Assembly: GCF_900113765.1 (NCBI RefSeq) | Contig: NZ_FOQO01000005.1 | Span: forward strand, 62,001 to 126,000 | Length of the DNA: 64,000 nt | Origin: Parapedobacter indicus | Lineage (GTDB): Bacteria > Bacteroidota > Bacteroidia > Sphingobacteriales > Sphingobacteriaceae | Reading direction: 5' to 3' | In this document: piece after piece, positions 2,587-37,585 of the stretch | How positions within the stretch are numbered: position 1 is the stretch's first letter | Layout of the letters: each line of letters starts with the position of its first letter | The notes under the pieces: generated by a model | What the model was told of the DNA's origin: nothing | The model's database searches: none | Seen by the model: only the letters and a program-made list of their open reading frames with translations | Made by a program: the position numbers and the translations under genes

Positions 2587-5500
2587 ATGTATAAAAAATC
2601 TATTGCATTTCGCCGGCCTCGGCGATATCTATTCAAATTGTTGCTAACCATGAAATTAGTCGCTGTATTGCTGATCGTTACCATCCTGCAAGCAGGTGCA
2701 AAAAGCTATGCACAAAAAGTGACTATCAACGTCAAACAGGCTTCAATCGCATCTGTATTGGACCAAATTCAGCAACAGACCGGTTACGACTTTCTGTACA
2801 ATAGCACACACCTACAAGGAACCAAAACGGTCGACCTCCACTTCAGGAATGCTTCCTTAAATGAAGTACTGGAAGCTTGTTTTTCCGGGCAACCGCTCAC
2901 CTATGAGATTGAAAACACAACGGTGCTGATACACCGGAAAAAAATAAGTACCCCGGTGCCTGATACAGAAATTCTGCAACGTGAAATCTCGGGCCGTGTA
3001 ACGGACCATCAAAACCAGCCACTGGAGGGTGTCACCGTTGCGGCCAAAGGGACCCATTCCGTAACAACCACCGATCGTGCCGGGCGATTTAGCCTATCAG
3101 TCCCCCAACAGGCCACGACCCTGGTCTTTACCTTGGTAGGTTTCGAGCCCCAGGAACATTCCATCGGCACTTCCAACAACCTTAATGTTTCGCTATCCCC
3201 TTCCCTCAGCGACCTCGATGAGGTGGTGGTGATCGGTTATGGAAGCGTAAAAAAGAGCGACGTGACCGGAGCAATCGGATCTGTCGATCGCGATGCCATC
3301 GTGCGCACGGCCAACATACAGGCAGCCGGAGCCATACAAGGGCAGGTGGCCGGTGTTAACTTGCTCAAAGTAAACGGAAAGCCAGGAGACGATTACAGCA
3401 TCGAGATACGGGGATTGAACTCCATCGGCAAGGGCAATGCGCCCCTCGTGGTCATCGACGGTGTAATGGGGGGGTCGCTGAGCTCATTGAATCCGGCTGA
3501 TATCGAGAAAATTGATGTCCTGAAGGACGCCTCGGCAACAGCCATCTACGGATCGAGGGGATCAAACGGTGTAATCATCGTAACCACCCGGCAAGGGGCA
3601 CCCGGGAAAAACCGGATCGCATACGATGGCTATGTTGGCATGAAGACGCCCACGAACCTGCCTGATATGATGGACGGCCCGCAATTTGTCGCGAATTTCA
3701 ACGAAATTTTAAAAAATGGAGGCACCCGGTATTTCGACGACAAGGAAAAGCAAAACATCGAAAATGGCGTCTATACGGATTGGATCGATCTACTGTTGCA
3801 AAATGGCATGCAATCAAGCCACAATATCTCCCTTTCGGGGGGAAATGAAAGTTCCCGGCATTTCTTTTCGGCAGGTTACCTAAAGGAAGAGGGAAATGTT
3901 CCCGCCGAAGAATTTAGCCGGTTTACATTAAAATCGAATATCGACGGAAAAATAAACAGCTGGATCAACGCCGGCACATCCACGTATGTGTCTTATGGCA
4001 TACAAGATCAGGGATCGAACGAAGCCCTTCGGGGTGCGTATCGGCTGCGGCCGACGGGCGACGCCTATGACGAGAACGGCGAGCTGCTTTTCTGGCCGAC
4101 CACCAGCGACAGTCAAACTCCCAACCCGCTATTCGATCCGTTGAACGTAAAAAATGAAACCAGAAATTTCCGGGTTTTCGGCAACCTCTTTGTTGAGGTG
4201 AATTTATTGGATGGGCTATCGTTCCGGTCAACCATTTCGCCTTACTTCGAGAGTGTACGCAGCGGAAATTTCGCCGGAAAATATTCCAAAGCGAATACGG
4301 GAACCCGGAATGGAAGTGGTGGATACAGCAACCAGTTAAATTTTTCTTACACATTAGACAACGTACTTTCTTATAACAAATCGGTCAAATCCCATTCCTT
4401 CGGTGGCATACTGGCCAATAGCATCGTCTCGAGCCGGGGTGAGGGCGCGGCGCAGGATGTATTGGACTTGCCGTACGACTCCTTTTGGTATAATACGGGT
4501 TCTGCCGGCAATATCGAAGGGGTTTCCAGCTACCTGACTGAATGGGCGTTGCTCTCGTATATGGGAAGGTTCAACTATTCCTTCAACGATAAATACCAAT
4601 TGACGCTTACCGGACGGGCCGATGGTTCATCAAAGCTGGCCGCAGGTCACAAGTGGGCTTTCTTCCCTTCAGCAGCGATCGCTTGGCGCGTAAGCGAAGA
4701 AGAGTTCCTTCGGGATGTCAAACCGCTTTCCAATCTCAAGCTTCGATTAAGCTACGGTGTGGTGGGCAACGATGCCGTTGCTCCGTATTCGACCCAAGCT
4801 TCTATCTTGCAGACGTTGTACGATTGGGGAGGCGATGCCGCCCTCGGCTTTGCACCCGGCGCCATTGCCAACAAATCGCTGGGCTGGGAAAAAAGTAAGG
4901 AAATAAACCTCGGTATCGATTTCGGATTCTTAAAGAACCGGATTTCCGGATCGGTGGATATCTACAGCAGGAAAACCGAAGACCTCATCCTTAGCCGGGC
5001 ACTTCCTCAGCACACAGGTTTTGGCGCGATTACCGCCAACGTCGGTTCTACCGCTAATAAGGGCGTAGAAGTAGCGCTTAATACCGTAAACATCCACACC
5101 AGCAATTTCTCGTGGAAAACGACGCTTACGTTTGCCAAAAACCACAACGAAATCGTTGAACTCTACGGAGACCAGAAGGATGACATCGGAAATAAATGGT
5201 TCATCGGCCAACCCATACAAGTACATTATGCTGAAGTCTTCGACGGGATATGGCAGCTCGACGAGGCCGAAGAGGCTGCTAAATACGGTGCAGAGCCGGG
5301 CCACGTAAAGGTAAAAGACCTGAATGAAGATGGGCAGATTACAGAAGTAGACCGGCAGATTATCGGGAGTCCGCTTCCCAAGTGGATCGGTGGCATGACG
5401 AACACCTTCGCCTATAAAGGAGTAGATTTCTCGTTCATGCTGTATTCACGGCAGGGCTCCATGATTTACAGCCCGTTCCATCACTCCAATTTCGCAAGGG

Positions 5501-5847
5501 AATGGAACGGTCGGTATAACAAGCTCAACGTAAATTACTGGACGGAGACAAATCCTTCCAATGAGTGGCCTGCACCCAACAACACCGGCGGCAGGGGACG
5601 CGAAGAGCTGAAAGCCTATGTGGATGCTTCCTTCGTGCGCGTACAGAATATTACATTGGGATATTCGTTTTCGCCAAACATCCTGTCACGCCTGAAGATG
5701 TCGGGATTACGGTTATACCTGACGGCCAACAATCCGTTGATATTTACCGACTATGCAGGGTTTGATCCGGAGTGGAGCGGGCAAAATACGTTTAATATGG
5801 GAATAAGCTCAGCCACCTATCTGTTTGGAGCAAACATATCTTTTTGA
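2587..5847 (+). CDS. SusC/RagA-type TonB-dependent outer-membrane transporter with STN signalling domain (locus A)
   Basis: Outer-membrane beta-barrel that imports oligosaccharides with its SusD partner, energised by TonB. The 1086-residue product has an extended, basic signal region ending near AKSYAQ (about residue 43), a secretin/TonB short N-terminal (STN) domain at about 45-112, a carboxypeptidase-regulatory-like beta-sandwich at about 134-205, and a plug beginning after DEVVVIGYGSVKKSDVTG (about 215), with the family motif ATAIYGSRGSNGVIIVTT near 315. The barrel fills the rest and ends in the aromatic ANISF. The STN domain means it also signals to the FecR at 1268. The start at 2587 was preferred to the internal ATG at 2650 because STN-type SusC proteins usually have this extended N-terminus. 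Substrate is inferred from the downstream sulfatase and lyase genes. Confidence 0.95.
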   Translation: MYKKSIAFRRPRRYLFKLLLTMKLVAVLLIVTILQAGAKSYAQKVTINVKQASIASVLDQIQQQTGYDFLYNSTHLQGTKTVDLHFRNASLNEVLEACFSGQPLTYEIENTTVLIHRKKISTPVPDTEILQREISGRVTDHQNQPLEGVTVAAKGTHSVTTTDRAGRFSLSVPQQATTLVFTLVGFEPQEHSIGTSNNLNVSLSPSLSDLDEVVVIGYGSVKKSDVTGAIGSVDRDAIVRTANIQAAGAIQGQVAGVNLLKVNGKPGDDYSIEIRGLNSIGKGNAPLVVIDGVMGGSLSSLNPADIEKIDVLKDASATAIYGSRGSNGVIIVTTRQGAPGKNRIAYDGYVGMKTPTNLPDMMDGPQFVANFNEILKNGGTRYFDDKEKQNIENGVYTDWIDLLLQNGMQSSHNISLSGGNESSRHFFSAGYLKEEGNVPAEEFSRFTLKSNIDGKINSWINAGTSTYVSYGIQDQGSNEALRGAYRLRPTGDAYDENGELLFWPTTSDSQTPNPLFDPLNVKNETRNFRVFGNLFVEVNLLDGLSFRSTISPYFESVRSGNFAGKYSKANTGTRNGSGGYSNQLNFSYTLDNVLSYNKSVKSHSFGGILANSIVSSRGEGAAQDVLDLPYDSFWYNTGSAGNIEGVSSYLTEWALLSYMGRFNYSFNDKYQLTLTGRADGSSKLAAGHKWAFFPSAAIAWRVSEEEFLRDVKPLSNLKLRLSYGVVGNDAVAPYSTQASILQTLYDWGGDAALGFAPGAIANKSLGWEKSKEINLGIDFGFLKNRISGSVDIYSRKTEDLILSRALPQHTGFGAITANVGSTANKGVEVALNTVNIHTSNFSWKTTLTFAKNHNEIVELYGDQKDDIGNKWFIGQPIQVHYAEVFDGIWQLDEAEEAAKYGAEPGHVKVKDLNEDGQITEVDRQIIGSPLPKWIGGMTNTFAYKGVDFSFMLYSRQGSMIYSPFHHSNFAREWNGRYNKLNVNYWTETNPSNEWPAPNNTGGRGREELKAYVDASFVRVQNITLGYSFSPNILSRLKMSGLRLYLTANNPLIFTDYAGFDPEWSGQNTFNMGISSATYLFGANISF

Positions 5848-5916
5848 TAACCGGAGATGGAAGAACTAACTACGGACTCTTTACAGTTAACGATAGAGCC
5901 GTTAAAGAAAAATTAT

Positions 5917-7542
5917 ATGAAATCGATTATAAAAAATATATCCGGCATTGCACTCATGGCCTGGGTAATCTTAACCGCGGTTTCCTGCAATGGCTTTTTG
6001 GAGGAGGAGCTTATCTCGGACCGCACGACCGACAACTATTATGTAGACGAGCAGGGGTATGAAGATCTCGTAAAATCGGCCTATAGCCCGTTGAGGGAAA
6101 TTCACAAGCTACGAGGCTTGACACTACTGGGTACCGATATCTTTACGCGACCCGGCGACCCGGCCTTGGGTGGGCTAAACCAGTTTAACGAATATTCGGC
6201 ACAGGCTATCAATCCCCAGGATGGAAATTCGGCCGTTTATTGGACCTTTTTATATGCAGCAATCGCCCGCGCCAATACCGCACTTGATCGTGCGCCGGAG
6301 GTATCCATGGATGACGCGATCAAAACGATCCGGGTTTCTGAAATCAAATTCCTGAGAGCCCTCTATTATTTTTACCTGGTCCAGCAATTTGGCGATATTC
6401 CATTGCCACTTACCGAAATTACCGAAGTGGTGACTACCGCCGAACGGATACCAGAAGCACAAGTTTATGAACAGATTATTAAGGACCTCGAAGAAGCCAT
6501 CCCCGCCCTTCCACCCGCGCAGGAAGAATACGGCCGGGTTACAAAAGGTGCAGCGCAACATCTGCTCGCGAAGGTATACCTGACCCGTGGATACCGCGAT
6601 TTTGCTGGATCTGATGATTTCGCGAAGGCGGCCAGTATTGCCACCGATGTCATCAATTCCGGCCAGTATCAGCTGCTTGATACCTTCGGTGAGGTCTTTC
6701 AGCAGGGAAATGAAGAAAACAATGAAATTCTATTTGCGGTACAATACAGCGTCAATACGGTATTAAATGGCGATGGCAACGACGCCCACTCGCTCTTTGG
6801 TCAGGGAGTGGATGGACTGATCGGCATGGATCGGTCGAGCACGTACAATCGGCAGCAAGCAACCTACGTTCCCACGAGATACCTATCAAGCCTCTATGAT
6901 ACGGATATGGATACACGGTACGATATCACCTTTCTTCGGATTTTCTACGCTACCGTGGATAAAGGCGATGTAAAAGTAGGAGATACCGTGCTCTACTTCC
7001 CGAAATGGGACCAACCCTGGACTGTTGAACGGATGGCCGCCGCAGATTACCTCGTCGTCAACTACGACGAATACTACATGAACGTAGCAAAACAAAATCA
7101 GTTCCCGCCCCTGTGGAAATTCTTCGAGGCCGGCTTACCGTACGGCGACGACAAAGGAACCCGTGACCTGTTTGTATTCCGTTTGGCAGAAACCCACCTC
7201 ATTGCCGCAGAGGCGTATCTCAAGGCCGGGAATGAACCCAAGGCCCTCGAACACATCAACGCGGTGCGCCGGCGGGCGGGTGCTCCGGGGATGAAAGATG
7301 CCATGGAGCTTTCTTCGGTAACCCTAGACGACATTCTTGACGAGCGGGCGCGGGAACTCTGCGGCGAGGAACCCAGGTGGACCGAATTGAAGCGGACAGG
7401 AAAGCTCATCGAACGGGTGAAACTGTACAACGAACGGGCTTCGGAAGCCAATACGATTAAGGATTTTCACTTGCTACGGCCGATACCGTTGTCGCAAATC
7501 GAGCGTTCATCGAACACCGTTTCGCAAAATCCGGGCTATTAA
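5917..7542 (+). CDS. SusD/RagB-like surface glycan-binding lipoprotein (locus A)
   Basis: SusD-like protein that caps the SusC barrel and binds glycan at the cell surface. From the ATG at 5917 the product (541 residues) begins with a good lipoprotein signal, MKSIIKNISGIALMAWVILTAVSC, with the acylated Cys at 24. An upstream in-frame ATG at 5857 would bury this signal behind 20 unrelated residues, so it was rejected. The N-terminal SusD domain includes FLRALYYFYLVQQFGDIPLPL, and the C-terminal RagB domain includes ETHLIAAEAYLKAGN and DERARELCGEEPRWTELKRTG, all typical. It follows susC by about 70 bases. Confidence 0.93.
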   Translation: MKSIIKNISGIALMAWVILTAVSCNGFLEEELISDRTTDNYYVDEQGYEDLVKSAYSPLREIHKLRGLTLLGTDIFTRPGDPALGGLNQFNEYSAQAINPQDGNSAVYWTFLYAAIARANTALDRAPEVSMDDAIKTIRVSEIKFLRALYYFYLVQQFGDIPLPLTEITEVVTTAERIPEAQVYEQIIKDLEEAIPALPPAQEEYGRVTKGAAQHLLAKVYLTRGYRDFAGSDDFAKAASIATDVINSGQYQLLDTFGEVFQQGNEENNEILFAVQYSVNTVLNGDGNDAHSLFGQGVDGLIGMDRSSTYNRQQATYVPTRYLSSLYDTDMDTRYDITFLRIFYATVDKGDVKVGDTVLYFPKWDQPWTVERMAAADYLVVNYDEYYMNVAKQNQFPPLWKFFEAGLPYGDDKGTRDLFVFRLAETHLIAAEAYLKAGNEPKALEHINAVRRRAGAPGMKDAMELSSVTLDDILDERARELCGEEPRWTELKRTGKLIERVKLYNERASEANTIKDFHLLRPIPLSQIERSSNTVSQNPGY

Positions 7543-7658: not shown

Positions 7659-10600
7659 ATGATGCGATTAAAAATGGATGGATTTCTGGCTGGCTTAGTA
7701 AGTGCAATCTTCGTTTGCTGCTGTCAACCCTCGTTTGCCCAAAAAGGGTGGCAAGCGCTATTCAATGGCCAGAACTTCGATGGATGGGAAAAGAAAAACG
7801 GAACGGCAAGCTATGAAATACGTGACGGCACCATTGTCGGTATTTCGCAGCTGAACACCCCCAATACGTTTCTCTGCACCAAAGAAACGTATGCGGATTT
7901 CATCCTCGAAATGGATGTAAAGATTGACGTTGGCCTCAACTCGGGGATACAGGTCCGGAGCCTGAGCCTCCCTGAAGTAGACAACGGCCGTGTGCACGGC
8001 TATCAAGTGGAGATCGATCCGGCCGAACGTGCATGGAGCGGAGGCATCTACGACGAAGCACGCCAAGGATGGTTGTATCCGCTATCTATCAACGAGAAAG
8101 GCAGAAGTGCCTTTAAAAACGGCGAATGGAACCGTTATCACATCGAAGCCGTGGGTAATACCATCCGGACATGGGTCAACGGAGTACAGTGCGCCAACCT
8201 CATCATCGATCTAACGCCCGAAGGGTTTATTGCCCTGCAGGTGCATGGCATCAAACAGAAAAGCCAGGAAGGACTGACGGTCCAGTGGCGTAACATCCGG
8301 ATCAAAACCGAAGACCTCGCCGCCGATTGCTGGAAACCGGATAACGACGTAGAAGAAGTAAGCTATCTCACCAACCAGCTGACCAAACGCCAAATCGACG
8401 AAGGATGGCGCTTGCTTTGGGACGGTAAAACCACGGCAGGATGGCGAAGGGCAAGTGCCAAGGACTTTCCCCCTACGGGATGGCAAATTGAAAACGGCCT
8501 GCTGAAGGTCCTGCCATCGGAAAAAGGAGACCCTAACAAAGGTGGCGATATCGTTACCGACCGCGAATTTTCCAATTTCGAACTCGAACTGGATTTCCTG
8601 ATCACCGAAGGGGGCAACAGTGGGATCAAATACCTGGTGGTTGAGGAACTCCGGCAACGGCCGGGAACGGGCCTCGGTCCGGAATATCAAATCCTCGACG
8701 ACGAACGGCATCCCGATGCCAAGAACGGCGTAGACGGAAACCGCACGGCAGGATCACTCTATGACCTGATCACTGCCGGAAACTTAAGCGAGCCGGGGAA
8801 AAACAAGCGGATAAACAAACCGGGAAAATGGAACAGGGCCAAGATTGTCGTAAACGGCAACCATGTGGAGCATTGGCTTAACCACATCAAAGTCGTGGAG
8901 TATGATCGCGGGTCAGCCGCCTTCAAGGCCTTGGTCGCGAAAAGCAAGTTTCACGAAGTGCCTGATTTCGGGCAGGCCCTCTCGGGCCATATCCTCCTTC
9001 AGGACCACGGCGATTTAGCCTATTTCAAAAACATCAAAATCAAGGAACTCGCTGCTCCCGTTGACCTCGTACAACCGCTGGTCGATGCAGCCAATTCCCG
9101 TTGGTTCTTTTTCAACTCCGCAACGCGGCCCTTCGGAATGGTCAACCTAAGTCCCGATATGGAAGTAGACGGCGACTGGGGAACCGGCTACCGATATCAC
9201 CAGGATACCATCCGCTGTTTCAGCCACGTACACGGCTGGCAGCTGTCGGGCATTCCGGTATTGCCCACAACAGGGCCATTTCGGGGGCATCTGGGCCCGC
9301 ATGTGTATGGATCGGCCTACACGCATCAACAGGAAATCGTCAGGCCAGGTTATCACAAAATTGTATTGGATGACTACGGGATCACGGCAGAACTGACGTC
9401 CACCACACGGGTCGGATTCCACCGCTATACCTTTCCCAAATCCCGCGAAAGCCACATTCTCTTTGACTTCACGACGGCATTAGGTCCCTCAAAGACGGAC
9501 AGGGGCTATGCCCGAAAGGTCAATGATCGGGAAATCGAAGGCTATGCCGTCATGGGCGCAACCGTACGCCGCCCTAAACCCGTAACGGTTTACTTTACCG
9601 CCAGGATCGACAAGCCTTTCCAGCAATTTTCAGGCTGGCAGAACGGGGAACTCATAAACGGCATCGAGGAGGTGGATGGCGAACACACCGGTATTTTTAT
9701 CAGCTTTCCGACCGCGCAGGACGAGGAGGTGCAACTAAAGGTCGCCATCTCCTACGTCAGCGTGGAACAAGCACGCCTCAATCTTGATGTCGAGCTGCCC
9801 CATTGGGACTTTGACCGGGTGGTGCGTGAATCGAGGGGGGAATGGAACCAATGGCTCAGCCGGATAACCGTAGAAGGGGGTACTCTCGAAGAGCGCCAAC
9901 GATTTTATACCGACCTGTGGCATGCCTTGCAAGGAAGACGGATCATCAGCGATGTGAACGGCAAATACTGCGACATGACCGGGTCAAGCCCAAGGATTGG
10001 CCAGATACCACTTGATGAAAAGGGTAAACCCACGTTTAACCACCACAACTCGGATTCCTTCTGGGGTGCCCAATGGACCATCAATACACTGTGGCACCTG
10101 GTCTATCCGGAGGTCACCCATTCGTTTGTCAACTCCATGCTGCTGATGTATGACGATGGCGGGTTGATTCCACGCGGACCGGCCGGGGGCAATTACACGT
10201 TCGTCATGACCGGTGCCTCATCCACCCCGTTTATCGTAAGCGCATACATGAAAGGTATCCACGGTTTCGACGTGAAGAAAGCATACGAAGGCCTGCGTAA
10301 AAACCACCTGCCGGGCGGGTTGATGAGCAAAGCGGGTTATGAACACGATACGTTCAAAGGCGGTGGCATCGAGCAGTACATCGATAAGGGCTATGTGCCT
10401 TATCCGCTCAGCAATATCCGGTACGGCTATCATCAAAACGGTGCGGCACAGACCCTGGAATATGCCTACCAGGACTTCGCGCTGTCGCAGTTGGCGCATG
10501 CGCTGGGCAAGACGGACGACGCGCAATTATTCCGCCGACGCGCAGAAAACTACAAAAATCTATGGAACAACGAATTGGGCTGGATGTGGGTAAAGGACAG

Positions 10601-11360
10601 CACCGGTCGATGGCGTTCGCCCGCCAATGTCCTCACCTATGAAAACGGATGGGTAGAAGGCAATGCCGCGCAATACACGTGGTTTGTACCCCACGACGTT
10701 GCCGGGCTGATCAACCTGATGGGAGGTGCTGATAGATTCAGCGGAAAGCTCGACAGCGTATTCCAAGTGGCCCAGTCCCATCATTTCACATCGGGCAAAT
10801 CACACTCCGTAGAAACACACGCCCAAAACAGGGAGGTCTACCTTAACTATGGCAACCAGCCCAGTATACACACCGCTTTCCTGTTCAATTATGCCGGCAC
10901 GCCATACCTTACCCAATACTGGACAAGGCAGGTCGTCAAGGAGGTGTACAGCGGTATATCCCCCGACTACGGGTACAGCGGCGATGAAGATCAAGGGCTG
11001 ATGGGCGCGTTGGCTGTACTTTTCAAGATCGGACTTTTTACAACCGACGGCGGTGTGTCGACCACGCCGATATACGAGATCGGCAGCCCCATATTCGACA
11101 AAATAACGCTCCGCCTCAATCCAGACTATTACCCCGGCAAGAAATTCGTCATCGAAACCCGTCATAATAGTCCGAAAAACTGTTATATCCAGTCCGCCAC
11201 GTTAAATGGTAACCCATTGGATCGGGCGTGGATACCCCATGACGTGATGGTAAAAGGCGGAACGCTCCGGTTGGACATGGGGGATGCCCCTAACAAACAG
11301 TTTGGGGCATTGCCCGAATTAGTACCACCCTCGATGTCCGCCATCGAAACCAAGCAATAA
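7659..11360 (+). CDS. Three-module secreted enzyme: 3-keto-disaccharide hydrolase (DUF1080) x2 plus GH92-like domain
   Basis: A 1233-residue exported protein, with a signal peptide to about residue 27 (LVSAIFVCCCQPSFAQ). Module 1 (about 30-212) and module 2 (about 245-458) are concanavalin-like 3-keto-disaccharide hydrolase (DUF1080, PF06439) domains. Module 1 is the subtype with QVEIDPAERAWSGGIYDEAR; module 2 is the classical subtype with NSGIKYLVVEE, GPEYQILDDERHPDAK and LLQDHGDLAYF. Module 3 (about 465-1225) resembles GH92, a calcium-dependent exo-mannosidase family, with FNSATRPFGMVNLSPD, PRGPAGGNY and, near residue 1107, GDEDQGLMGAL in place of the usual GN-D-GQMSAW. The usual FSHTHLSGTG-like motif reads FSHVHGWQLSG, so specificity may differ from mannose. 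It is the first enzyme gene after susCD. Function as an enzyme is likely; substrate is unknown. Confidence 0.8.
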   Translation: MMRLKMDGFLAGLVSAIFVCCCQPSFAQKGWQALFNGQNFDGWEKKNGTASYEIRDGTIVGISQLNTPNTFLCTKETYADFILEMDVKIDVGLNSGIQVRSLSLPEVDNGRVHGYQVEIDPAERAWSGGIYDEARQGWLYPLSINEKGRSAFKNGEWNRYHIEAVGNTIRTWVNGVQCANLIIDLTPEGFIALQVHGIKQKSQEGLTVQWRNIRIKTEDLAADCWKPDNDVEEVSYLTNQLTKRQIDEGWRLLWDGKTTAGWRRASAKDFPPTGWQIENGLLKVLPSEKGDPNKGGDIVTDREFSNFELELDFLITEGGNSGIKYLVVEELRQRPGTGLGPEYQILDDERHPDAKNGVDGNRTAGSLYDLITAGNLSEPGKNKRINKPGKWNRAKIVVNGNHVEHWLNHIKVVEYDRGSAAFKALVAKSKFHEVPDFGQALSGHILLQDHGDLAYFKNIKIKELAAPVDLVQPLVDAANSRWFFFNSATRPFGMVNLSPDMEVDGDWGTGYRYHQDTIRCFSHVHGWQLSGIPVLPTTGPFRGHLGPHVYGSAYTHQQEIVRPGYHKIVLDDYGITAELTSTTRVGFHRYTFPKSRESHILFDFTTALGPSKTDRGYARKVNDREIEGYAVMGATVRRPKPVTVYFTARIDKPFQQFSGWQNGELINGIEEVDGEHTGIFISFPTAQDEEVQLKVAISYVSVEQARLNLDVELPHWDFDRVVRESRGEWNQWLSRITVEGGTLEERQRFYTDLWHALQGRRIISDVNGKYCDMTGSSPRIGQIPLDEKGKPTFNHHNSDSFWGAQWTINTLWHLVYPEVTHSFVNSMLLMYDDGGLIPRGPAGGNYTFVMTGASSTPFIVSAYMKGIHGFDVKKAYEGLRKNHLPGGLMSKAGYEHDTFKGGGIEQYIDKGYVPYPLSNIRYGYHQNGAAQTLEYAYQDFALSQLAHALGKTDDAQLFRRRAENYKNLWNNELGWMWVKDSTGRWRSPANVLTYENGWVEGNAAQYTWFVPHDVAGLINLMGGADRFSGKLDSVFQVAQSHHFTSGKSHSVETHAQNREVYLNYGNQPSIHTAFLFNYAGTPYLTQYWTRQVVKEVYSGISPDYGYSGDEDQGLMGALAVLFKIGLFTTDGGVSTTPIYEIGSPIFDKITLRLNPDYYPGKKFVIETRHNSPKNCYIQSATLNGNPLDRAWIPHDVMVKGGTLRLDMGDAPNKQFGALPELVPPSMSAIETKQ

Positions 11361-11370
11361 ACCATAAGCG

Positions 11371-12720
11371 ATGATACGAAGGATTAGCTATTCGGTTCTC
11401 TTCTTCGCGGTGTGGGCATTCACTGTTTCCTTGGATACGTACGCACAACCAAAACCGAACATCGTAGTTTTCCTTTCAGACGACCATGGGCAGGAAGATG
11501 CAGGATGCTACGGAAACACCGAGGTGATAACGCCCGCAATAGATCAGCTCGCGCGGGAGGGCATGGTGTTTACCCGGGCCTATACGCCCGTTTCGGTGTG
11601 CGCACCGTCCCGTTCGGCGTTGTTTACGGGCTTGTATCCCCACCACAACGGATGCTCCCGCAACCATGGATCGGTATTCGAGGGTATCAGGTCGCTGCCC
11701 CATTACCTCGCTGCTGCCGGATACGAGGTGATATTGGCTGGAAAAGAACATATTAAGCCAAAAGAAGCGTTTCCATTCACGTATATGGAGCGGCATCAGA
11801 TTCCGGCTTACCTAAGCGGCGAGCACGTGCGGCCATTCTGCCTGATTGTATCACTTAATGCGCCGCATCAGCCCTACTTTAACCTGAAAGGAGGCCATGG
11901 TAAAATCACCCCAAAGCGATGGCTGGCCAATACGCCGGAAACCACGCAATATACCGCGGCTTATTACGATCACGTGACATTGGCCGATCAGGAAATCGGA
12001 TCCATACTGTTTTGGCTGGAGCGGCTGGGTCTCCATGAAAACAGTATCCAGCTATACCTCAGCGATCACGGCCCAGCCTTCCCATTCGCCAAGTGGACAC
12101 TTTACGAACAAGGCATACGCATCCCACTCATTGTCAAATGGCCCGGCGTGGTGCAACCGGGTACCGTTTCCGATGCGCTCGTGAGCATGGTCGATATCCT
12201 CCCCACGTTACTCGATATGGCAGGCGTTACTCCCCAACCGCTGGACGGCAAGTCCCTTACCCCCGTCCTGAAGGGCCAGGCAACATCCCTGCATCACGCT
12301 GTATATGGCTGTTATACAAATTTGGGCGTGCAAGGCGCCAATGAATACCCCATACGGACGGTCGTAAGCGATCGTTACAAACTGATCGTAAACCTGCGCT
12401 CAGGTAATCGCTTTTCCTTGAAGGCGATGGACGAACCGGACGAACGGGCGGTCATCGATGCCAAGCGGGTGCTTGATTCGTGGCTGTCGAGTGGCGATGC
12501 CAATGCCATCCAACGTGCCCATTATTACCGGAACCGTCCGCTCATTGAGTTGTACGATCTGTCCCAAGATCCGTACGAATTGGTTAACCGTGCACATGAC
12601 GAAGCGCTGAACAGCACCGTAACGGAAATGTATCAGCTGTTGGTCGACTGGATGAAATCGCAGAATGATCCCTTGCTGAACGAAATGGAAATGAACGGGG
12701 CAAAACTACGCAACAAATGA
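11371..12720 (+). CDS. Secreted sulfatase 1 (FGly type, N-sulfoglucosamine sulfohydrolase-like)
   Basis: Type I formylglycine sulfatase that hydrolyses sulfate esters or sulfamate from glycans in the periplasm. The signal peptide ends near TYA-Q (about residue 25). The calcium-site aspartates are in LSDDHG (D37, D38), and the formylglycine motif CAPSR has the modified cysteine at 77. The short 449-residue form, the LAGKEHIKP segment, YLSDHGPAFPFAKWTLYEQGIRIP and the C-terminal YPIRTVVSDRYKLIVNL resemble heparan N-sulfatase-like (SGSH, about S1_8) enzymes. Members of that group in marine bacteria also act on other sulfated sugars, so the bond cleaved is open. It starts 10 bases after the three-module gene, and its stop overlaps the next start (ATGA). 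Confidence 0.88.
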   Translation: MIRRISYSVLFFAVWAFTVSLDTYAQPKPNIVVFLSDDHGQEDAGCYGNTEVITPAIDQLAREGMVFTRAYTPVSVCAPSRSALFTGLYPHHNGCSRNHGSVFEGIRSLPHYLAAAGYEVILAGKEHIKPKEAFPFTYMERHQIPAYLSGEHVRPFCLIVSLNAPHQPYFNLKGGHGKITPKRWLANTPETTQYTAAYYDHVTLADQEIGSILFWLERLGLHENSIQLYLSDHGPAFPFAKWTLYEQGIRIPLIVKWPGVVQPGTVSDALVSMVDILPTLLDMAGVTPQPLDGKSLTPVLKGQATSLHHAVYGCYTNLGVQGANEYPIRTVVSDRYKLIVNLRSGNRFSLKAMDEPDERAVIDAKRVLDSWLSSGDANAIQRAHYYRNRPLIELYDLSQDPYELVNRAHDEALNSTVTEMYQLLVDWMKSQNDPLLNEMEMNGAKLRNK

Positions 12721-14114
12721 CCCGAAAGGAATTTATATACCAAACAACGGTGGGATTTACCGCCGTATTGACGCTACCGGGCGTCTGGGCTTTTCACAGC
12801 CCGAAAGATAAAGAAAATTGGAAGCCGTTTGATTTCCGCCCATTCCGGAGTGGACAAACCGCCGCGCCGGTTATGCAGGTAACACCGGATGATGGTTATT
12901 ACGTGCATACCTTTTACGATGTATGCCCCTGGAGCCCATCCGGACGGTACCTCGCGCTCACCAAGCTACCCTATCAACGTAAAAAGCCGGTTTGGGGGGA
13001 TACCGCAGCTGTTTGTGTGGTCGATTTGGAAAAACGAGCCATACGTACGGTTTACCAGACCAAAGCTTGGTCTTTCCAGGTGGGTGCAAATGTGCAGTGG
13101 GGCCACGCCACCGACCGGTACCTGTATACCAACGACGTCATCAACGGTATACCGGTCTGTGTACGCATCGACCTGATAACCGGCGACATCAAGGCGTTCT
13201 CAGGGGCAAAATACGACATTGCGCCGGACGATAAATCGGTAATCAGTCCGAACCTCCTGAACATGAACATCCACCAATACGGCTATGCGGTGCCCGATCC
13301 TCCTCCGGGCAAGCCCCAGCCCTTCCGGCCGGAAGACATGCATCGCGAAGGATTGTGGAAAACCGACCTGGAACGAAACGAGACGACACTGCTGGCCACC
13401 ATGGATCAATTTTTCGACGCCGTGGCCGAAAATGATCGCCAGCGGTACAACCGCAGCATCGGTTACCTCTTCCATTCCAAATTCAACCGGCAGAATACCC
13501 GTATTTTGCAGGTTTTCCGTGCGCAGGTCGACGGCGAGGGCCGCAACGCTTCCCTGTTTACCATGAACACGAACGGAAAGGAGCTGATACAGTGCTTGTC
13601 CGCCGAAAAGTGGAACCAGCGCGCCCGATTGGGGGGCTCCGGCAATCACCCGAACTGGCATCCCGACGGGGAACGGATTATTATGAACTGCATCCCAACC
13701 TGGCTGGGTTACCAAGACATGCTGTTTTGCGCTTTTGATTACAGGGGCGACCAGTTTACGGTACTCTCCGAAAAACACCTCGGCAGCGGCCATCCCACTA
13801 TGCACCCGGGTTCGCGATACCTGCTCGCGGATGCCTATCCGAAACAGACCTATGTGGTGCCTGAGAGCGGGGAAATCCCCCTTCGGCTCATTGACCTAAA
13901 ATACGACACCGAAACGATTATCTGCACCCTACCGACGGACGTGGGTGGCGGAAGCAATCAATATTTACCTCCCGATCGCATAACCGGCGGAAGCCACCAT
14001 AAGCTGGACCCTCACCCCGCCTGGAACAGGGACTATACCCAGATTTGCTTCAACGGAGCTCCCGGAGGAAGGCGACAGGTGTTTATTGCTGACATTCATA
14101 CGTTACTACCATGA
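12717..14114 (+). CDS. Secreted beta-propeller protein, possible polyuronide/oligouronide lyase
   Basis: A 465-residue exported protein made of TolB/WD40-like propeller blades. Blade motifs recur at roughly 62-77 (WSPSGRYLALTKLP), 310-325 (HPNWHPDGERIIMNC), 355-372 (GHPTMHPGSRYLLADAY) and 430-445 (DPHPAWNRDYTQICFNG). Oligogalacturonate lyases (PL22) and the propeller-type ulvan lyases use this fold with metal-binding or catalytic histidines. The histidine-rich HPNWHPDG, GHPTMHP and GGSHHKLDPHP segments here are suggestive, and the neighbours GH105 and a heparinase-like lyase fit lyase chemistry. The N-terminus resembles a Tat or Sec signal (MTRKEFIYQTTVGFTAV) but has RK, not RR. The start overlaps the upstream sulfatase stop by 4 bases. 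It could instead be a binding protein. Confidence 0.6.
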   Translation: MTRKEFIYQTTVGFTAVLTLPGVWAFHSPKDKENWKPFDFRPFRSGQTAAPVMQVTPDDGYYVHTFYDVCPWSPSGRYLALTKLPYQRKKPVWGDTAAVCVVDLEKRAIRTVYQTKAWSFQVGANVQWGHATDRYLYTNDVINGIPVCVRIDLITGDIKAFSGAKYDIAPDDKSVISPNLLNMNIHQYGYAVPDPPPGKPQPFRPEDMHREGLWKTDLERNETTLLATMDQFFDAVAENDRQRYNRSIGYLFHSKFNRQNTRILQVFRAQVDGEGRNASLFTMNTNGKELIQCLSAEKWNQRARLGGSGNHPNWHPDGERIIMNCIPTWLGYQDMLFCAFDYRGDQFTVLSEKHLGSGHPTMHPGSRYLLADAYPKQTYVVPESGEIPLRLIDLKYDTETIICTLPTDVGGGSNQYLPPDRITGGSHHKLDPHPAWNRDYTQICFNGAPGGRRQVFIADIHTLLP

Positions 14115-15892
14115 TTAGATTGATTATTACGCTATTATTTTTTAGTATCGCCATACAGACCGTCAGTGCGCAGGATGGTTGGCAAAAAGACAACATACGC
14201 AACCTGATGAACAAAACGGCACAGTGGCAGATGCAGCAACCGGCCAAATATCCGAAGCTCGACTGGCACGAAGGAACGTGGTACGCGGGTTTAATGGCGC
14301 TCTATGATACCACACGCGATTCCATTTACGACGATTACCTTTGCAACATCGCGTCCAGCCACCACTGGCAGGGAATGTCTGATGTCTACGATGCCGACCG
14401 CTTGATGGTGGTACAGACTTACCTGGACCTCTTCCGGCACCAACCCGACAGCCAACGTATCCAGCACAGCAAATGGATGCTGGATGCACACTTAGCCCGC
14501 CGACCCAAAGCCGATGTGCAGTTTACGGACAACCCGTACCGCAGAGAATGGTGGTCGTGGTGCGACGCGCTTTTCATGGCTCCGCCTGCCTTTGCAAAGT
14601 ACTACCGGTTGACTGGTGATGAAAAATACCTCGATTACCTGACCGAACATTGGTGGAAAACATCGGAATATCTCTATGCCCAACCGGAAAACCTCTTTTA
14701 CCGCGACGACCGGTTCTTCGATGCCAAAAGTCCCAATGGTGCGAAAGTTTTTTGGAGCCGCGGCAACGGCTGGGTGTTGGCAGCGATCGCGCGCATAGGA
14801 AGTGAACTACCCTCCGATTTTAATGGCCGCCCCCGATTCGAAAAGCAATTTGTGGAGATGGCCGCGTCCATCCGCGCGCGCCAGGGAGCCGACGGCCTCT
14901 GGCGGGCAAACCTGTTGGACTACGATGCATTCCCGGAGCCGGAATGCAGCAGCACCGCGCTCTTTTGCTATGCGTTTGCCTGGGGGATCCGCACCGGCTT
15001 ACTCGACGCCGACACCTACCTACCGGTCGTCAAGAAGGCTTGGGCCGGGTTGAGTAGCCACATCAACGCGGAAGGACGGCTGGGCTTTGTGCAGCCGCCG
15101 GGTATTGAACCCAAAGCGTTTTCCGAAGAAAACTGGGAATCGTATGGGACTGGGGCGTTTTTGCTAGCGGGATGTGAAATTATTCGGCTGCTTGAAGAAT
15201 CCGGTCCTGCCGTGACCTATGAAAAAGGGGAACTGCTTTACGAAAACACGTTGTCAGACCCGGCCGCTGTCCGCGGATGGGTCATGGAAGGACCCGGTAA
15301 ACTGGAATTTAAGAACGGATGGATGGAACTCTATGCCGAACAACAGCAATGGCACCACGTGTTTTGGTGCCCCCAAACCTTTCCGGGTAGTTTCATAGCC
15401 GAATGGGAAGTGCAAAACCTCCACACCGAGGCCGGCCTGTTGATTACATTCTTTGCAGCCGCCGGAAGAAACGGCGAAGACCTCTTCGACTCCGCGCTTC
15501 CGCCCCGCGAGGGTACATTCAAGTATTATACAAAAGATCAGATCAACAGCTACCACATTTCCTACTACGCGAATAATCCCAAGAATCCGACGCGCGAATT
15601 TGCCCACTTACGCAAGAACAGTGGCTTCGCGCTCGTACAGACCGGACCGGAGGGCATCCCAAAGACATCTCCTGCCGTTCACCACATCAAGCTGGTCAAA
15701 GATCTGGGCCGTATCTGCTTTTTTATCGATGGCCGTAAAATCATTGACTGGACAGACGATGGGAATACACAAGGTCCGGTCCTCGGTGCAGGTAAGATCG
15801 GTTTCCGCCAGATGCAATGGTCACACTTCCGCTACCGGAACTTCCGGGTTTGGCAACTCACCCATCAAAACCGTACAAGCCATGATTCCTAA
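14111..15892 (+). CDS. GH105 unsaturated-uronyl hydrolase fused to a DUF1961 domain
   Basis: GH105 (and related GH88) enzymes remove the 4,5-unsaturated uronic acid left at the non-reducing end after lyase cleavage. Residues about 28-360 form the (alpha/alpha)6 barrel, with WWSWCDALFMAPP holding the probable catalytic Asp152 and WSRGNGWVLAAIARI typical of the family. Residues about 375-592 are a DUF1961 (YesU-like) concanavalin-type domain, recognisable from the start GELLYENTLSD and the end KIGFRQMQWSHFRYRNF. In many genomes these are separate neighbouring genes; here they are one 593-residue exported protein (signal ending near VSA-Q). It overlaps its upstream neighbour by 4 bases and its downstream neighbour by 11. 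It strongly implies a uronate-containing substrate. Confidence 0.87.
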   Translation: MIRLIITLLFFSIAIQTVSAQDGWQKDNIRNLMNKTAQWQMQQPAKYPKLDWHEGTWYAGLMALYDTTRDSIYDDYLCNIASSHHWQGMSDVYDADRLMVVQTYLDLFRHQPDSQRIQHSKWMLDAHLARRPKADVQFTDNPYRREWWSWCDALFMAPPAFAKYYRLTGDEKYLDYLTEHWWKTSEYLYAQPENLFYRDDRFFDAKSPNGAKVFWSRGNGWVLAAIARIGSELPSDFNGRPRFEKQFVEMAASIRARQGADGLWRANLLDYDAFPEPECSSTALFCYAFAWGIRTGLLDADTYLPVVKKAWAGLSSHINAEGRLGFVQPPGIEPKAFSEENWESYGTGAFLLAGCEIIRLLEESGPAVTYEKGELLYENTLSDPAAVRGWVMEGPGKLEFKNGWMELYAEQQQWHHVFWCPQTFPGSFIAEWEVQNLHTEAGLLITFFAAAGRNGEDLFDSALPPREGTFKYYTKDQINSYHISYYANNPKNPTREFAHLRKNSGFALVQTGPEGIPKTSPAVHHIKLVKDLGRICFFIDGRKIIDWTDDGNTQGPVLGAGKIGFRQMQWSHFRYRNFRVWQLTHQNRTSHDS

Positions 15893-18449
15893 GCAACTGA
15901 TCCGTTTGTTCGCGGGCGTGGCCGCAGCAATTCTCATCCAATGCGGGGCTCCACGCACACAGCCGGTGTCGTATCCAGATGCCGTCTATTCACGGTACCT
16001 TTCGGCCGCTGAGCCGACGGCCGGCATTGCGGCGCAATTCAATACGCCTGTCCTCCGCTGGCCTGCGGAAAAGGGGAAATCCGTGCGCTATGACGTACGC
16101 CTGTCACCCGATTCCTTGTTTCCAAACGAACAGACGCTACACCGCGAAAACATTCCCTGGGCGCTGTTCAATCCGCACCAGCGCCTTCCCGAGGGAATCT
16201 GGTACTGGCAGTACCGGGTCTCCGGAAAAACGTGGTCTGCTTTGCAGACTTTTCAAATCACACCCTCCGCCATCCCCTTGGTGTCACCACCCGCAAACCG
16301 GTTCCTCGATGGTATACCGGCAGTTCATCCGCGTTTACTCGCAGAAGGGGCAGATACGACCCACATCCGGTCCCTCGCTGCTGACGGTGATGTGCAGGCC
16401 ATTATCCGGGAAGCGGAAATGGCCCTGAAGCAGCCCATCCTGACGGAGCGCGATGGCCTGCCGAAAAGGCGGCACGACGACGCCGAGCGGAACCGCAAAC
16501 AGGAGCAGGATGCCAGCAAGCGATTGGGTGAGTTCGCCTATGGCACCACGCTACCGCTGTGCCAGGCTTACCTCCTCACCGGCGACAGCCGGTACCGCGT
16601 CCATGCGATACGCATTGCCCGGGAAATTGCCACGTGGGACCCCAAAGGGGTATCCCGGATCAGCGACTTCAGCGATGCACGCTGCATGTTGGCCCTCGCG
16701 CTCGTATTCGATACCTTTCACGGATCGCTGACCAGCGCGGACCGGGCGCTCATGCTTCGATCAATCACCGAACGTGCCAGCAGCTTTTACATCAGCTGGC
16801 GGAACGATGTGGAGGCAAAAATATTGAGCGGCCACGTGTGGCAGCACATCCTGCATTATTTTTTTCAGACCGGCATCGCTGTATATGGGGATGTTCCGGA
16901 AGCTGCCCAATGGCTGGAATATGCCTATGAACTATTCCTTGCCCGCGCACCCATATTGGGTGGCGTGGATGGTGGATGGATTGAAGGGGCATCGTATTTC
17001 CGGATGAACATGGCGACACTCATCGATATTCCCCTGACCATCAAGCAGTATACCGGTTTTGATTTCATCAACACGCATCCCTGGTATACGCATACCATCG
17101 ACTGGCTCTTATACCATGTTCCCCCAGGATCCTCCGCGGACGGGTTTGGAGACAATACCGAGGAGGTCTTTTCGCCGGGCGTGGCGTATATTGCTTATGC
17201 AGACATGCTCGCCAGGCTGACCGGAAATCCCAAAGCCGCGCGGTATGTGGAACTGTGCCGACAATACGAAAATCCGGACATCGCGACCGATCGGTCCCTG
17301 CGGTGGATCCGGCTAGCCCGGACGGAAGACGCTGACAGCGCCAGCTCGGCTGCTGCCGCCGAACTAGAAACCGGAAAGATCTTCCGGGAAATTGGCCTCG
17401 CAGCATTGCATTCCAATCCGGGCAATACTCCTGAAAACCTCATGGTGGCGATGCGGTCGAGCCCCTTCGGTTCGTATGGGCATTTCCTTTCGGATCAAAA
17501 TGCGTTCAACATCTTGTACGGCGGCAAACGTGCGTTCTTCCGCACGGGCTATAAGGTAACGATGAAGGATCCGCACCGCACAGGCTGGTATCAGCACACC
17601 AAAAGCAACAATAGCCTCTTGATCGACGGTGCCGGCCAACCCTATAGTGTGGAGGCCTACGGCTGGATGCCCCGGTTCCTGCAAGGGGAAGAAATGGCCT
17701 ATGTGATGGGAGATGCGTCTGCCGCGTACAGCAGTGCCGAAACCGGTGAAGACTACGGGCTGAAGAAATTCCACCGGCACCTGCTCTTGCTGAAGCCCGA
17801 TATCATCGTGGTGTATGACGAGCTGGAGGCCGACCATCCCGCGAGCTGGTCGTGGCTGCTCCATAGCATGGCCAAAATTCACATCGATACGGCAACCAAC
17901 CGTTTTTCTTCCCGCTTCGAGGGATTCTCCGGCGCAGGTAAGCTGTGGACACCTTCGGCGGTGTCCTGGAGTTTGGCCGATACGTTTGAAGTACGCGCAG
18001 AAAATTGGCGCGGAAGCCTCAATCAGTTCGGGGAACTGAAACGTTATGACGATGAACAATGGCACCTCAAAGCGATCAACGTTGCCAAGATCCGCTCCAC
18101 ACGTTTCCTTGCCGTCTTTCAGGTAGGCCCTACGGTCAACATCGAAGCGGCTGAAGAGGCGTACCATGATGGTGTGCTGACCGTTTCTTTAGGTAATTGG
18201 GACATCCGTGCGCAATTGGACACCGCACGTTCACCGGGCTTATCCGTCACGAACCGTTCGGGCACAACGGCCTTTTCCACGCACGCCGCGCAGATCTCGC
18301 TAGCAGGGAAAACCTTCGGTCAACGTGAGAACAGCGCAAAACTAGCTGAAATGCTCAGCAGTCATATCCGCTATGTGGAGGCTTCGGATGAATTACCCTA
18401 CGCCATGCAGCAACGTTTACTAATCGACAGCAAAAACAAGAAAAAATGA
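15882..18449 (+). CDS. DUF4962/heparinase II/III-type polysaccharide lyase lipoprotein (PL40-like)
   Basis: An 855-residue lipoprotein: the signal MIPKQLIRLFAGVAAAILIQC has its lipobox Cys at 21. This supports the start at 15882, inside the end of the GH105 gene; an in-frame extension further upstream is only a shadow of GH105. A fibronectin-like stretch (about 40-125) precedes an (alpha/alpha) toroid and a heparinase II/III beta-sandwich (about 560-830). Candidate catalytic residues lie in GHVWQHILHYFF (His318) and EGASYFRMNMA (Tyr372), where heparinase II/III-type lyases use histidine and tyrosine. GDNTEEVF and QHTKSNNSLLIDG are also family-like. Known relatives include ulvan lyases and a uronate dehydratase, so lyase versus dehydratase remains open. 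Confidence 0.75.
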   Translation: MIPKQLIRLFAGVAAAILIQCGAPRTQPVSYPDAVYSRYLSAAEPTAGIAAQFNTPVLRWPAEKGKSVRYDVRLSPDSLFPNEQTLHRENIPWALFNPHQRLPEGIWYWQYRVSGKTWSALQTFQITPSAIPLVSPPANRFLDGIPAVHPRLLAEGADTTHIRSLAADGDVQAIIREAEMALKQPILTERDGLPKRRHDDAERNRKQEQDASKRLGEFAYGTTLPLCQAYLLTGDSRYRVHAIRIAREIATWDPKGVSRISDFSDARCMLALALVFDTFHGSLTSADRALMLRSITERASSFYISWRNDVEAKILSGHVWQHILHYFFQTGIAVYGDVPEAAQWLEYAYELFLARAPILGGVDGGWIEGASYFRMNMATLIDIPLTIKQYTGFDFINTHPWYTHTIDWLLYHVPPGSSADGFGDNTEEVFSPGVAYIAYADMLARLTGNPKAARYVELCRQYENPDIATDRSLRWIRLARTEDADSASSAAAAELETGKIFREIGLAALHSNPGNTPENLMVAMRSSPFGSYGHFLSDQNAFNILYGGKRAFFRTGYKVTMKDPHRTGWYQHTKSNNSLLIDGAGQPYSVEAYGWMPRFLQGEEMAYVMGDASAAYSSAETGEDYGLKKFHRHLLLLKPDIIVVYDELEADHPASWSWLLHSMAKIHIDTATNRFSSRFEGFSGAGKLWTPSAVSWSLADTFEVRAENWRGSLNQFGELKRYDDEQWHLKAINVAKIRSTRFLAVFQVGPTVNIEAAEEAYHDGVLTVSLGNWDIRAQLDTARSPGLSVTNRSGTTAFSTHAAQISLAGKTFGQRENSAKLAEMLSSHIRYVEASDELPYAMQQRLLIDSKNKKK

Positions 18450-21479: not shown

Positions 21480-21489
21480 ATCATCAATC

Positions 21490-34681: not shown

Positions 34682-34697
34682 TGTTAACTTTATAGGA

Positions 34698-35405
34698 ATG
34701 AACAAACTCATTTTATCTGTATCCCTACTCCTGCTGGCAGCTGGAGTACAAGGCCAAACCCGCGATAACGAGCTGACCACCCAAGAGCAAGCCGATGGCT
34801 GGCAACTGCTCTTCAACGGAAAAGACCTGACGGGATGGAAAACCACCCGGGGCATTTCACCGAATGAAGACTGGCAGATAGCGGACGGCGTGCTGTCTGT
34901 CCGTCCCGAAACCAAAGGTCACCGGGATATCATTTCCGACGAGCAGTACAGCGACTTTGATCTGCGGATTGATTTCAAGATCACCAAAGGCGCCAACAGC
35001 GGCATCAAATATTTCTTTACCAATTACGAGGAAGGCGGCTGGCTAGGCCCCGAATACCAGATCATCGACAACCAAAACCATCCCGACGCCAAACTGGGCT
35101 TACACGGAAATCGCCAACTCAGCACACTGTATGACCTGCTTCCCGTAACCAATAAGGTAGCAATCAAGGTCGGCGAATGGAACCAGGCCCGGATTGTCGC
35201 CCACGGCTCCAAAGTGACTCATTACGTAAACGGTCAGGAAGTATTGACATACGACCGGAAAAGTCCGGAATTTGAACAAGCCCGGGAGTTAAGCAAATTC
35301 AAAGAGGTCAAACCAAGCTTTGGCTCCATCAATAAAGGCCACATCCTGTTGCAGGATCATGGCGACGTGGTGTTTTTTAAAAATATAAAAATCAAATCCT
35401 TATAA
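34698..35405 (+). CDS. 3-keto-disaccharide hydrolase-type (DUF1080) secreted protein
   Basis: A 235-residue exported concanavalin-like protein (PF06439). The signal peptide ends near VQG-Q. The domain (about 32-233) has the full set of family motifs: GWQLLFNGKDLTGWK, NSGIKYFFTNYE, LGPEYQIIDNQNHPDAK, STLYDL, HYVNGQEVLTYDR and ILLQDHGDVVFFKNIKIK. Characterised relatives hydrolyse glycosides after the sugar has been oxidised to its 3-keto form. The start at 34698 follows TATAGGA; an upstream in-frame ATG at 34662 inside susD lacks a signal and was rejected. The oxidoreductase 10 bases downstream is the natural partner that would create the keto sugar. Confidence 0.88.
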   Translation: MNKLILSVSLLLLAAGVQGQTRDNELTTQEQADGWQLLFNGKDLTGWKTTRGISPNEDWQIADGVLSVRPETKGHRDIISDEQYSDFDLRIDFKITKGANSGIKYFFTNYEEGGWLGPEYQIIDNQNHPDAKLGLHGNRQLSTLYDLLPVTNKVAIKVGEWNQARIVAHGSKVTHYVNGQEVLTYDRKSPEFEQARELSKFKEVKPSFGSINKGHILLQDHGDVVFFKNIKIKSL

Positions 35406-35415
35406 ATCAAAGATC

Positions 35416-36780: not shown

Positions 36781-36806
36781 TTCAGCATTAACTTCGTTTT
36801 TTATGG

Positions 36807-36840
36807 AAATACCCCGCTTTTTGCAGGGTATTTCTTCTTA
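36807..36840 (+). terminator. Probable rho-independent terminator after the first DUF1080-oxidoreductase pair
   Basis: AAATACCC (36807-36814) and GGGTATTT (36826-36833) form a perfect 8-bp stem, with further GC pairing inside the loop, followed by the T-rich CTTCTT. It lies 26 bases after the oxidoreductase stop and just before the second DUF1080 gene. It would end or attenuate the susCD transcript and separate the two enzyme pairs. Confidence 0.65.
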
Positions 36841-36855
36841 ACTAAAAACAACTCG

Positions 36856-37566: not shown

Positions 37567-37585
37567 CTGCTAAATACAGACACGT

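Follow-up and report, generated by a model that had tools for sequence, protein, structure and literature searches.

Glycoside hydrolases of family GH92 have been said to comprise solely exo-acting alpha-mannosidases (PMC6298971; this and the other articles cited by PMC number, save PMC12858847, in excerpt), and 32 bacterial members have been characterised (PMC12858847). The DUF1080 domain (PF06439) has been linked to the hydrolysis of 3-keto-glycosides, as in the 3-ketotrehalose hydrolase BT2157 and, by fitness data, in CCNA_01705, encoded near LacABC; both proteins have a single DUF1080 and no GH92, and dehydrogenase genes lie near CCNA_01705 (PMC9007349). Two architectures come close to the one described here. 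PDB 4jqt is a standalone tandem-DUF1080 protein (putative glycosyl hydrolase) without GH92. In NnGH92 of Neobacillus novalis (PDB 7nsn) additional domains likewise pack around a GH92, but these are CBM32s, a CBM-like domain and a helical bundle rather than DUF1080, and its substrate-binding site is highly conserved with that of BT3990 (PMC10167667). Sulfatase/GH92/GH88 polysaccharide utilisation loci (PULs) of North Sea Flavobacteriia are alike in operon content to the locus studied here; they hold several GH92s and GH2/3, and the excerpt mentions no DUF1080 fusion (PMC6298971). The present analysis concerns a window of 64,000 nucleotides (nt) of Parapedobacter indicus (NZ_FOQO01000005.1, positions 62,001-126,000, forward strand), in which one gene encodes a leader, a tandem DUF1080 and a GH92 within 1233 amino acids (aa).

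This gene is proposed, with about as much confidence as doubt, to encode a recently tethered pair: a tandem DUF1080 from a 3-keto-glycoside-cleaving family and a GH92 of a distinct clade, working on a modified or acidic sugar of a sulfated, uronate-rich glycan. The fused protein would be exported to the periplasm and would there meet oligosaccharides released from such a glycan by the lyase, GH88 and sulfatases of the operon. Its GH92 half, exo-acting and inverting, would take off a terminal sugar that is alpha-linked and either modified or acidic. The oxidation of a residue at C3 would fall to a dehydrogenase provided in trans, by locus B (another part of the window) or from elsewhere, after which the DUF1080 half would open a neighbouring bond. 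The tether would hold both activities on one chain.

Modules and origin of the fused gene

The gene is a single uninterrupted ATG frame. The module families named in an earlier sequence-only reading of this DNA were matched above cut-off in hidden Markov model searches: PF06439 in two stretches of the protein (whole-protein E 5e-90, 301 bits against a cut-off of 26.8; the two copies at 154.1 and 159.3 bits), and, far above their cut-offs, the N-terminal GH92 domain PF17678 (E 4e-61, 207.4 bits) and the catalytic domain PF07971 (E 2e-146, 489.2 bits). TIGR01180 gave 488.7 bits against a cut-off of 249.55. A hydrophobic leader can be read at the N-terminus and agrees with the exported polypeptide of that reading, the periplasm being its probable destination. 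One solved protein, PDB 4jqt (431 aa; 532 bits), aligns over the whole of residues 30-464, so the gene consists of two old proteins joined and not of three free modules. The three-module description holds for the domains matched, but its DUF1080 pair is one known protein; the idea that two DUF1080 subtypes had been newly combined has been discarded on that ground.

The origin of the fusion has been traced in related genomes. A close GH92 (E <= 1e-180) is present in 3 of 9 Parapedobacter genomes, those of the window, P. pyrenivorans (G400) and P. soli (G401). In P. pyrenivorans the frame is also fused (1234 aa; identity 94% over DUF1080 and 93% over GH92). In P. soli, where the GH92 (frame of 809 aa) is 83% identical, the DUF1080 gene (frame of 485 aa) stops at a TAG, and the GH92 gene, which has an ATG and a hydrophobic leader of its own, follows without a change of frame. 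Alignment of the two sequences leaves a 126-nt in-frame gap at the junction, with the P. soli TAG facing a sense codon. The gene order is common to the three genomes: SusC, SusD, DUF1080-GH92 (fused or split), sulfatase, an unnamed protein, GH88, a heparinase-like protein, sulfatase, PhoD and four sulfatase-like genes.

Outside these species, a tandem-DUF1080 query of 295 genomes of the class gave 24 other matches, all in frames of 455-504 aa and hence without GH92; only the window frame had 1233 aa. Among the 12 matching of 399 genomes of the family, such a long frame was confined to the window genome and P. pyrenivorans, the rest having 772-905 aa. The wider context of the GH92 was taken from 80 named loci (L numbers below), the best 80 of at least 583 relatives; many of them end at contig ends, and the set may lack records that belong to the genome of the window. 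P. pyrenivorans is the only one of them with a fusion to DUF1080, and no such fusion was found beyond the two Parapedobacter species in these loci or in the 12 family genomes. The architecture is unusual. A literature search over titles and abstract starts found no GH92-DUF1080 enzyme; two articles, PMC10881899 among them, name both GH92 and DUF1080. A standalone tandem DUF1080 lies near a GH92 of the same type in 16 of the 80 loci, P. soli included (the DUF1080 of L145, truncated at the end of its stretch, was not taken as tandem). Since standalone tandem DUF1080 genes occur near standalone GH92 genes in other families, separate genes are most likely the ancestral state. The fusion appears to be a recent, in-frame one of two adjacent genes in a single PUL operon, whose separate versions persist in P. 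soli. Against a close bond between the two halves stand the 63 loci whose stretch shows the GH92 without a tandem DUF1080, fused or separate; the pairing is frequent but not obligatory.

Several rival explanations have been considered, which are not mutually exclusive. The fusion might be a neutral accident, a deletion between adjacent co-transcribed genes that left function unchanged. This is a real possibility, although its chance is put at rather below even: a single short in-frame gap and the loss of the TAG account for the event, and it is found only in two closely related species (GH92 93% identical), but both halves have remained intact in both, and the GH92 clade has also been joined to several other modules, so that fusion recurs. 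An artefact of sequencing or assembly, such as a frameshift, has a negligible probability because the assembly of a second species carries the fused 1234-aa frame, and the single polypeptide of the sequence-only reading is upheld.

Tandem DUF1080 half and 3-keto chemistry

The second DUF1080 module keeps the EYQILDD..HPDA..DGNR..SLYD..QDHGD residues of solved single-domain DUF1080 proteins (3hbk, 8v31, 3h3l and 8rr2). The genomic company of the tandem unit was followed in 20 neighbourhoods taken from the 24 other matches mentioned above. A Gfo/Idh dehydrogenase gene is present in 18 of them, mostly as the next gene recognised. In the tree of DUF1080 sequences, 17 of 18 tandem genes from GH92 loci share one half with three Gfo/Idh-partnered genes; 14 tandem genes, 13 from GH92 loci and one from the 20 neighbourhoods, are grouped with support of 100/99. 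Both sets share 68 invariant residues, and at the 90% level no residue tells the two apart. Those in module 2 include E342, Q344, D348, H351, D353, R362, S366-D369, N392, N408 and Q448-H450 (window protein numbering). The simplest reading is that the tandem lineage of GH92 loci keeps the same chemistry, with an oxidised substrate that would come from a dehydrogenase encoded elsewhere, and a 3-keto role of the DUF1080 half is plausible.

Three observations weigh against this role. A second DUF1080 activity, that of an endo-glucanase/xanthanase, has been reported (PMC10881899). Ten DUF1080 genes of a Pedobacter gave no lactose phenotype, redundancy being one explanation (PMC9007349). Finally, an enrichment of Gfo/Idh genes with the tandem DUF1080 inside GH92 loci was looked for and not found (3 of 16 loci with the tandem gene vs. 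11 of 64 without it). The half could do without 3-keto chemistry, as a glycan-binding unit or an ordinary endo-hydrolase, and this is an appreciable, though not the favoured, possibility. It would agree with the xanthanase, with the low proportion of Gfo/Idh neighbours in GH92 loci, and with the operon, in which no dehydrogenase was found. It sits poorly with the retained residues of module 2 and with the 68 positions shared with the Gfo/Idh-partnered lineage, since more drift would be expected of a pure binding module. With respect to the coupling of 3-keto chemistry to exo-glycosidase action put forward in the sequence-only reading, the standalone tandems fit the 3-keto part, but the coupling to the fused GH92 is not established, because the tandems of GH92 loci are mostly without Gfo/Idh. 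As a separate observation, L109 (7490-10903), from the same genome as the window, encodes a 1138-aa protein with HEAT repeats and two DUF1080 domains that adjoins a Gfo/Idh-like gene.

GH92 half and its clade

In GH92 the −1 subsite has been called fully conserved. In BT3130 numbering, Glu535 is the general acid and Asp637 the general base; Asp353 bridges O3 and O4 of mannose, Trp390 contacts O4, Met400 lies under the ring, and Ca2+ coordinates O2 and O3 (PMC5930347). The fused protein was compared at this site with 6f8z, 2wvx/2wzs and 7zgm, of 14 matching solved sequences, and with BT3965 through the same article. Its GH92 model (mean predicted local distance difference test, pLDDT, of 81.5) has Z scores of 36.6-45.7 to the 16 GH92 entries listed, against 15.3 for the row that follows, and shares its fold with BT3130, BT3965 and BT3990 (PDB 6f8z, 6f91 and 2wvx; Z 39-43). 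The general acid and base, Met400 and the Asn of the GN[EQ]P motif are shared with BT3130 and BT3990, and by sequence, fold and acid/base residues the protein is a GH92. In contrast, Asp353, the Arg that follows it and Trp390 of BT3130 are replaced by Gly, Trp and Gly, and an Arg has been added. The telling change is that of WDTFR to WGAQW together with P-x-W to P-R-G. The Asp and Trp that hold mannose O3 and O4 are absent, with Gly803 and Gly840 at their columns, and the protein is not established as an alpha-mannosidase because these contacts fail.

The divergence of the GH92 domain noted in the sequence-only reading is borne out by these pocket replacements. Its two altered motifs, FSHVHGWQLSG and GDEDQGLMGAL, do differ from canonical GH92, but a bearing on catalysis is not supported: the second still contains the catalytic base, both carboxylates (Glu1000 and Asp1111) are in place, and an alteration of them has been ruled out. 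The Ca2+ site is probably kept as well, judging from the GN[EQ]P Asn, conserved in 156 of 156 aligned GH92 sequences; we take this motif to serve that site.

The same changes extend over a large group. In the alignment of 156 sequences (near-copies included, some genomes having entered by two routes and only exact duplicates being removed), all keep the general acid and base. Asp353 is present in 40 and absent from 116, the query among them, with Gly in 105. The Arg of WDTFR is found in 40/40 sequences with Asp353, and Trp takes its place in 115/116 without it. At the Trp390 column, Trp occurs in 38/40 of the former and Gly in 113/116 of the latter, and the residue before it is Arg or Lys in 1/40 vs. 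113/116. Met400 is common to both groups (40/40 and 114/116). A 79-row tree, which holds all 40 sequences with Asp353 and 39 of the 116 without it, places the two types on opposite sides of one branch (Shimodaira-Hasegawa approximate likelihood-ratio test, SH-aLRT, 100). The query's FSHVHGWQLSG and GDEDQGLMGAL are themselves close to clade-wide forms. Because the other columns follow the sorting by Asp353 and a tree branch separates the types, the divergence is a stable property of a large GH92 clade. The pattern D[SAG]xWxxx[WF] matches 116/116 of its sequences but is loose: the canonical GH92 of L198 contains it too, at an unrelated position. Neither this clade nor the recent origin of the fusion, with its split counterpart in P. 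soli, formed part of the sequence-only reading. The loss of Asp and Trp and the gain of Arg/Lys near O4 suggest that the clade probably accommodates at −1 a modified or acidic sugar (a sulfated or a uronic one) in place of plain mannose; a basic residue near O4 would fit such a sugar.

Judged by the company of the clade, uronate-rich, sulfated or esterified glycans are a likelier target than N-glycans or yeast mannan. Among the 80 loci, S1-sulfatase-like genes were counted in at least 42, SusC in at least 37, SusD in at least 38, tandem DUF1080 in at least 16, heparinase-like genes in at least 8 and GH88-like genes in at least 5; these are lower bounds because many loci stop at contig ends. 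A further 76 neighbours, picked from 206 unnamed ones, included 11 NPCBM-melibiases, 9 GH28, 5 esterases, 4 GH95 and 4 LacI regulators. Fusions of clade members, whose motifs were verified, join them to a PF05426 lyase (L152, with the same extension in seven more loci, 707-838 bits), a SASA esterase (L177), GH28 (L157, L183), PL4 domain III (L039, the window genome's own second clade member, and L087, L089, L073), a GDSL hydrolase (L084) and F5/8C modules (L073, L086). The canonical GH92 of L198 is fused to GH47. In L075, L076, L077 and L078, of another family, a clade GH92 adjoins a GH92 with canonical WDTFR, which suggests non-redundant roles.

Some points tell against a changed sugar. The two groups were defined by the Asp353 column itself, and the clade was mostly sampled by similarity to the query and the canonical type as top Pfam hits, which may have left intermediates under-represented. 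The model falls below a pLDDT of 50 at module residues 329-332 and 364-382, exactly the altered loops, for which reason pocket geometry cannot decide the role of the Arg/Lys or of a conserved Asp four residues before Gly803 that might replace Asp353. The GH92 half could then be an ordinary alpha-mannosidase that holds O3/O4 by other residues (e.g., the shifted Asp799), in an operon for a glucuronomannan-like sulfated glycan. Fold and acid/base conservation would allow it, an Asp lies three residues before Trp in every listed clade variant, and glucuronomannan has been taken as the target of similar PULs that are rich in sulfatase and GH92 and contain GH88 (PMC6298971). It is nevertheless considered rather unlikely: the O4 contacts of BT3130 and BT3965 (PMC5930347) are gone, while Trp390 stays in 38 of the 40 Asp353-bearing sequences, a new Arg/Lys stands beside the lost contacts, and the fusion partners of the clade are mostly uronate-polysaccharide enzymes and not mannosidases.

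The clade-wide pocket change is worth more than the fusion itself. A tentative and more doubtful extension is that the clade labelled 'alpha-mannosidase' could be a distinct type of exo-glycosidase whose target is an acidic or sulfated sugar in glycans of water and soil. Its physical union with a 3-keto-glycoside-cleaving unit in Parapedobacter would then bring hydrolytic and oxidative/eliminative cleavage to bear on one bound chain. PULs have been assigned to mannose-rich glycans on the all-mannosidase view of GH92 (PMC6298971), and some of these assignments could be wrong, as the clade (116 aligned sequences, near-copies included) keeps the catalytic residues and not the known mannose contacts. 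A simple sequence test is offered by WDTFR vs. DxxWxxxW and P-x-W vs. P-[RK]-G. The fusion and the still-separate genes of P. soli constitute a natural experiment on the cooperation of 3-keto-type and hydrolytic cleavage.

Locus A, locus B and further neighbours

The features of the window are collected in Table 1. Locus A has the layout of a PUL, with SusC/SusD followed by carbohydrate enzymes in an order kept in G400 and G401. The fused gene is the first after SusC/SusD, ending 10 nt before a sulfatase, which matches the earlier description of a gene heading the enzyme part of a sulfatase/lyase locus and not of a plain mannan one. That the operon lacks a Gfo/Idh dehydrogenase had also been noted, and none was matched among the Pfam-scanned locus A proteins.

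Table 1. Features of the window discussed in the text (BT3130 residues are given for comparison; residue roles from PMC5930347, in excerpt)
Feature	Positions	Strand	Basis
SusC-type TonB-dependent transporter, locus A	2587..5847	+	Pfam
SusD-type protein, locus A	5857..7542	+	Pfam
Fused gene: leader, tandem DUF1080 and GH92, 1233 aa	7659..11360	+	Open reading frame, Pfam; same fusion in L090/L115
DUF1080 module 1, aa 29-222, divergent copy	7743..8324	+	PF06439; 4jqt alignment
DUF1080 module 2, aa 237-464	8367..9050	+	PF06439; 3hbk, 8v31, 3h3l, 8rr2 alignments
Fusion junction; in P. soli TAG, second ATG and second signal sequence, 126 nt more	9051..9068	+	
GH92 N-terminal domain, aa 471-698	9069..9752	+	PF17678
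GH92 catalytic domain, aa 704-1213	9768..11297	+	PF07971 (aa 704-1209), TIGR01180, fold match
D799-S-F-W-G-A-Q-W806 in place of canonical ..WDTFR; Asp353 to Gly803, Arg three on to Trp806	10053..10076	+	
R839-G-P; Trp390 to Gly840, residue before now Arg	10173..10181	+	
Glu1000, general acid position (Glu535)	10656..10658	+	Alignment; role from PMC5930347
Asp1109-Glu-Asp1111, general base position (Asp1111 = Asp637)	10983..10991	+	Alignment; role from PMC5930347
S1 sulfatase, 10 nt past fused gene	11371..12720	+	Pfam
Unnamed protein, low-confidence beta-propeller model	12717..14114	+	No Pfam match; model pLDDT 57
GH88 and DUF1961 fusion	14111..15892	+	Pfam
DUF4962 and heparinase II/III-like protein (frame; true start probably ~15900)	15453..18449	+	Pfam
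S1 sulfatase	18446..20035	+	Pfam
PhoD-like phosphatase (frame)	19929..21479	+	
S1 sulfatase (frame)	21109..22884	+	
Sulfatase-like protein	22892..24412	+	NCBIfam sulfatase models, below cut-offs
Sulfatase-like protein	24428..25963	+	NCBIfam sulfatase models, below cut-offs
Sulfatase-like protein	25968..27524	+	NCBIfam sulfatase models, below cut-offs
Nearest Gfo/Idh dehydrogenase found, locus B; possible 3-keto substrate source	35416..36780	+	

The unnamed protein after the first sulfatase gave no Pfam match and no credible PDB sequence match. Its model is close to many propellers, with Z 21.7-21.8 to the oligogalacturonate lyases 3c5m/3pe7 and 22.5 to an S9 peptidase (8wt1), and its likeness to the lyase, tied with that to the peptidase, is only a lead. 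The protein is conserved in the three Parapedobacter loci and in Agriterribacter (L132). The GH88-DUF1961 gene also has a frame of ~599 aa in G400 and G401.

In locus B, two DUF1080 and two Gfo/Idh genes alternate (window 34662-38983). The dehydrogenase listed in Table 1 has a 98% homologue in the fused P. pyrenivorans and a best match of 58% in the split P. soli; three genomes are too few to link the fusion to locus B. Part of this locus (FecR, SusC) adjoins locus A in P. pyrenivorans and is not within 2.4 kb past locus A in P. soli.

A last family recurs around the clade, of ~570 aa and with an MNRRNF-like leader (L125:6041-7771, L119:4557-6266, L139:6158-7867 and relatives), in 21 of the 80 loci. 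The members scanned singly (L125, L119, L122:4438, L118:3524, L185 and L139) had no Pfam match, and sequence comparison with the PDB gave no match for the family. Its sequence pattern prompts the guess that it may be a new kind of polysaccharide lyase. It occurs together with a heparinase-like protein in 1 of the 80 loci, and mutual exclusion of the two is not supported because only ~2 co-occurrences would be expected by chance. The family is commoner where a tandem DUF1080 is present (10 of 16 vs. 11 of 64 loci).

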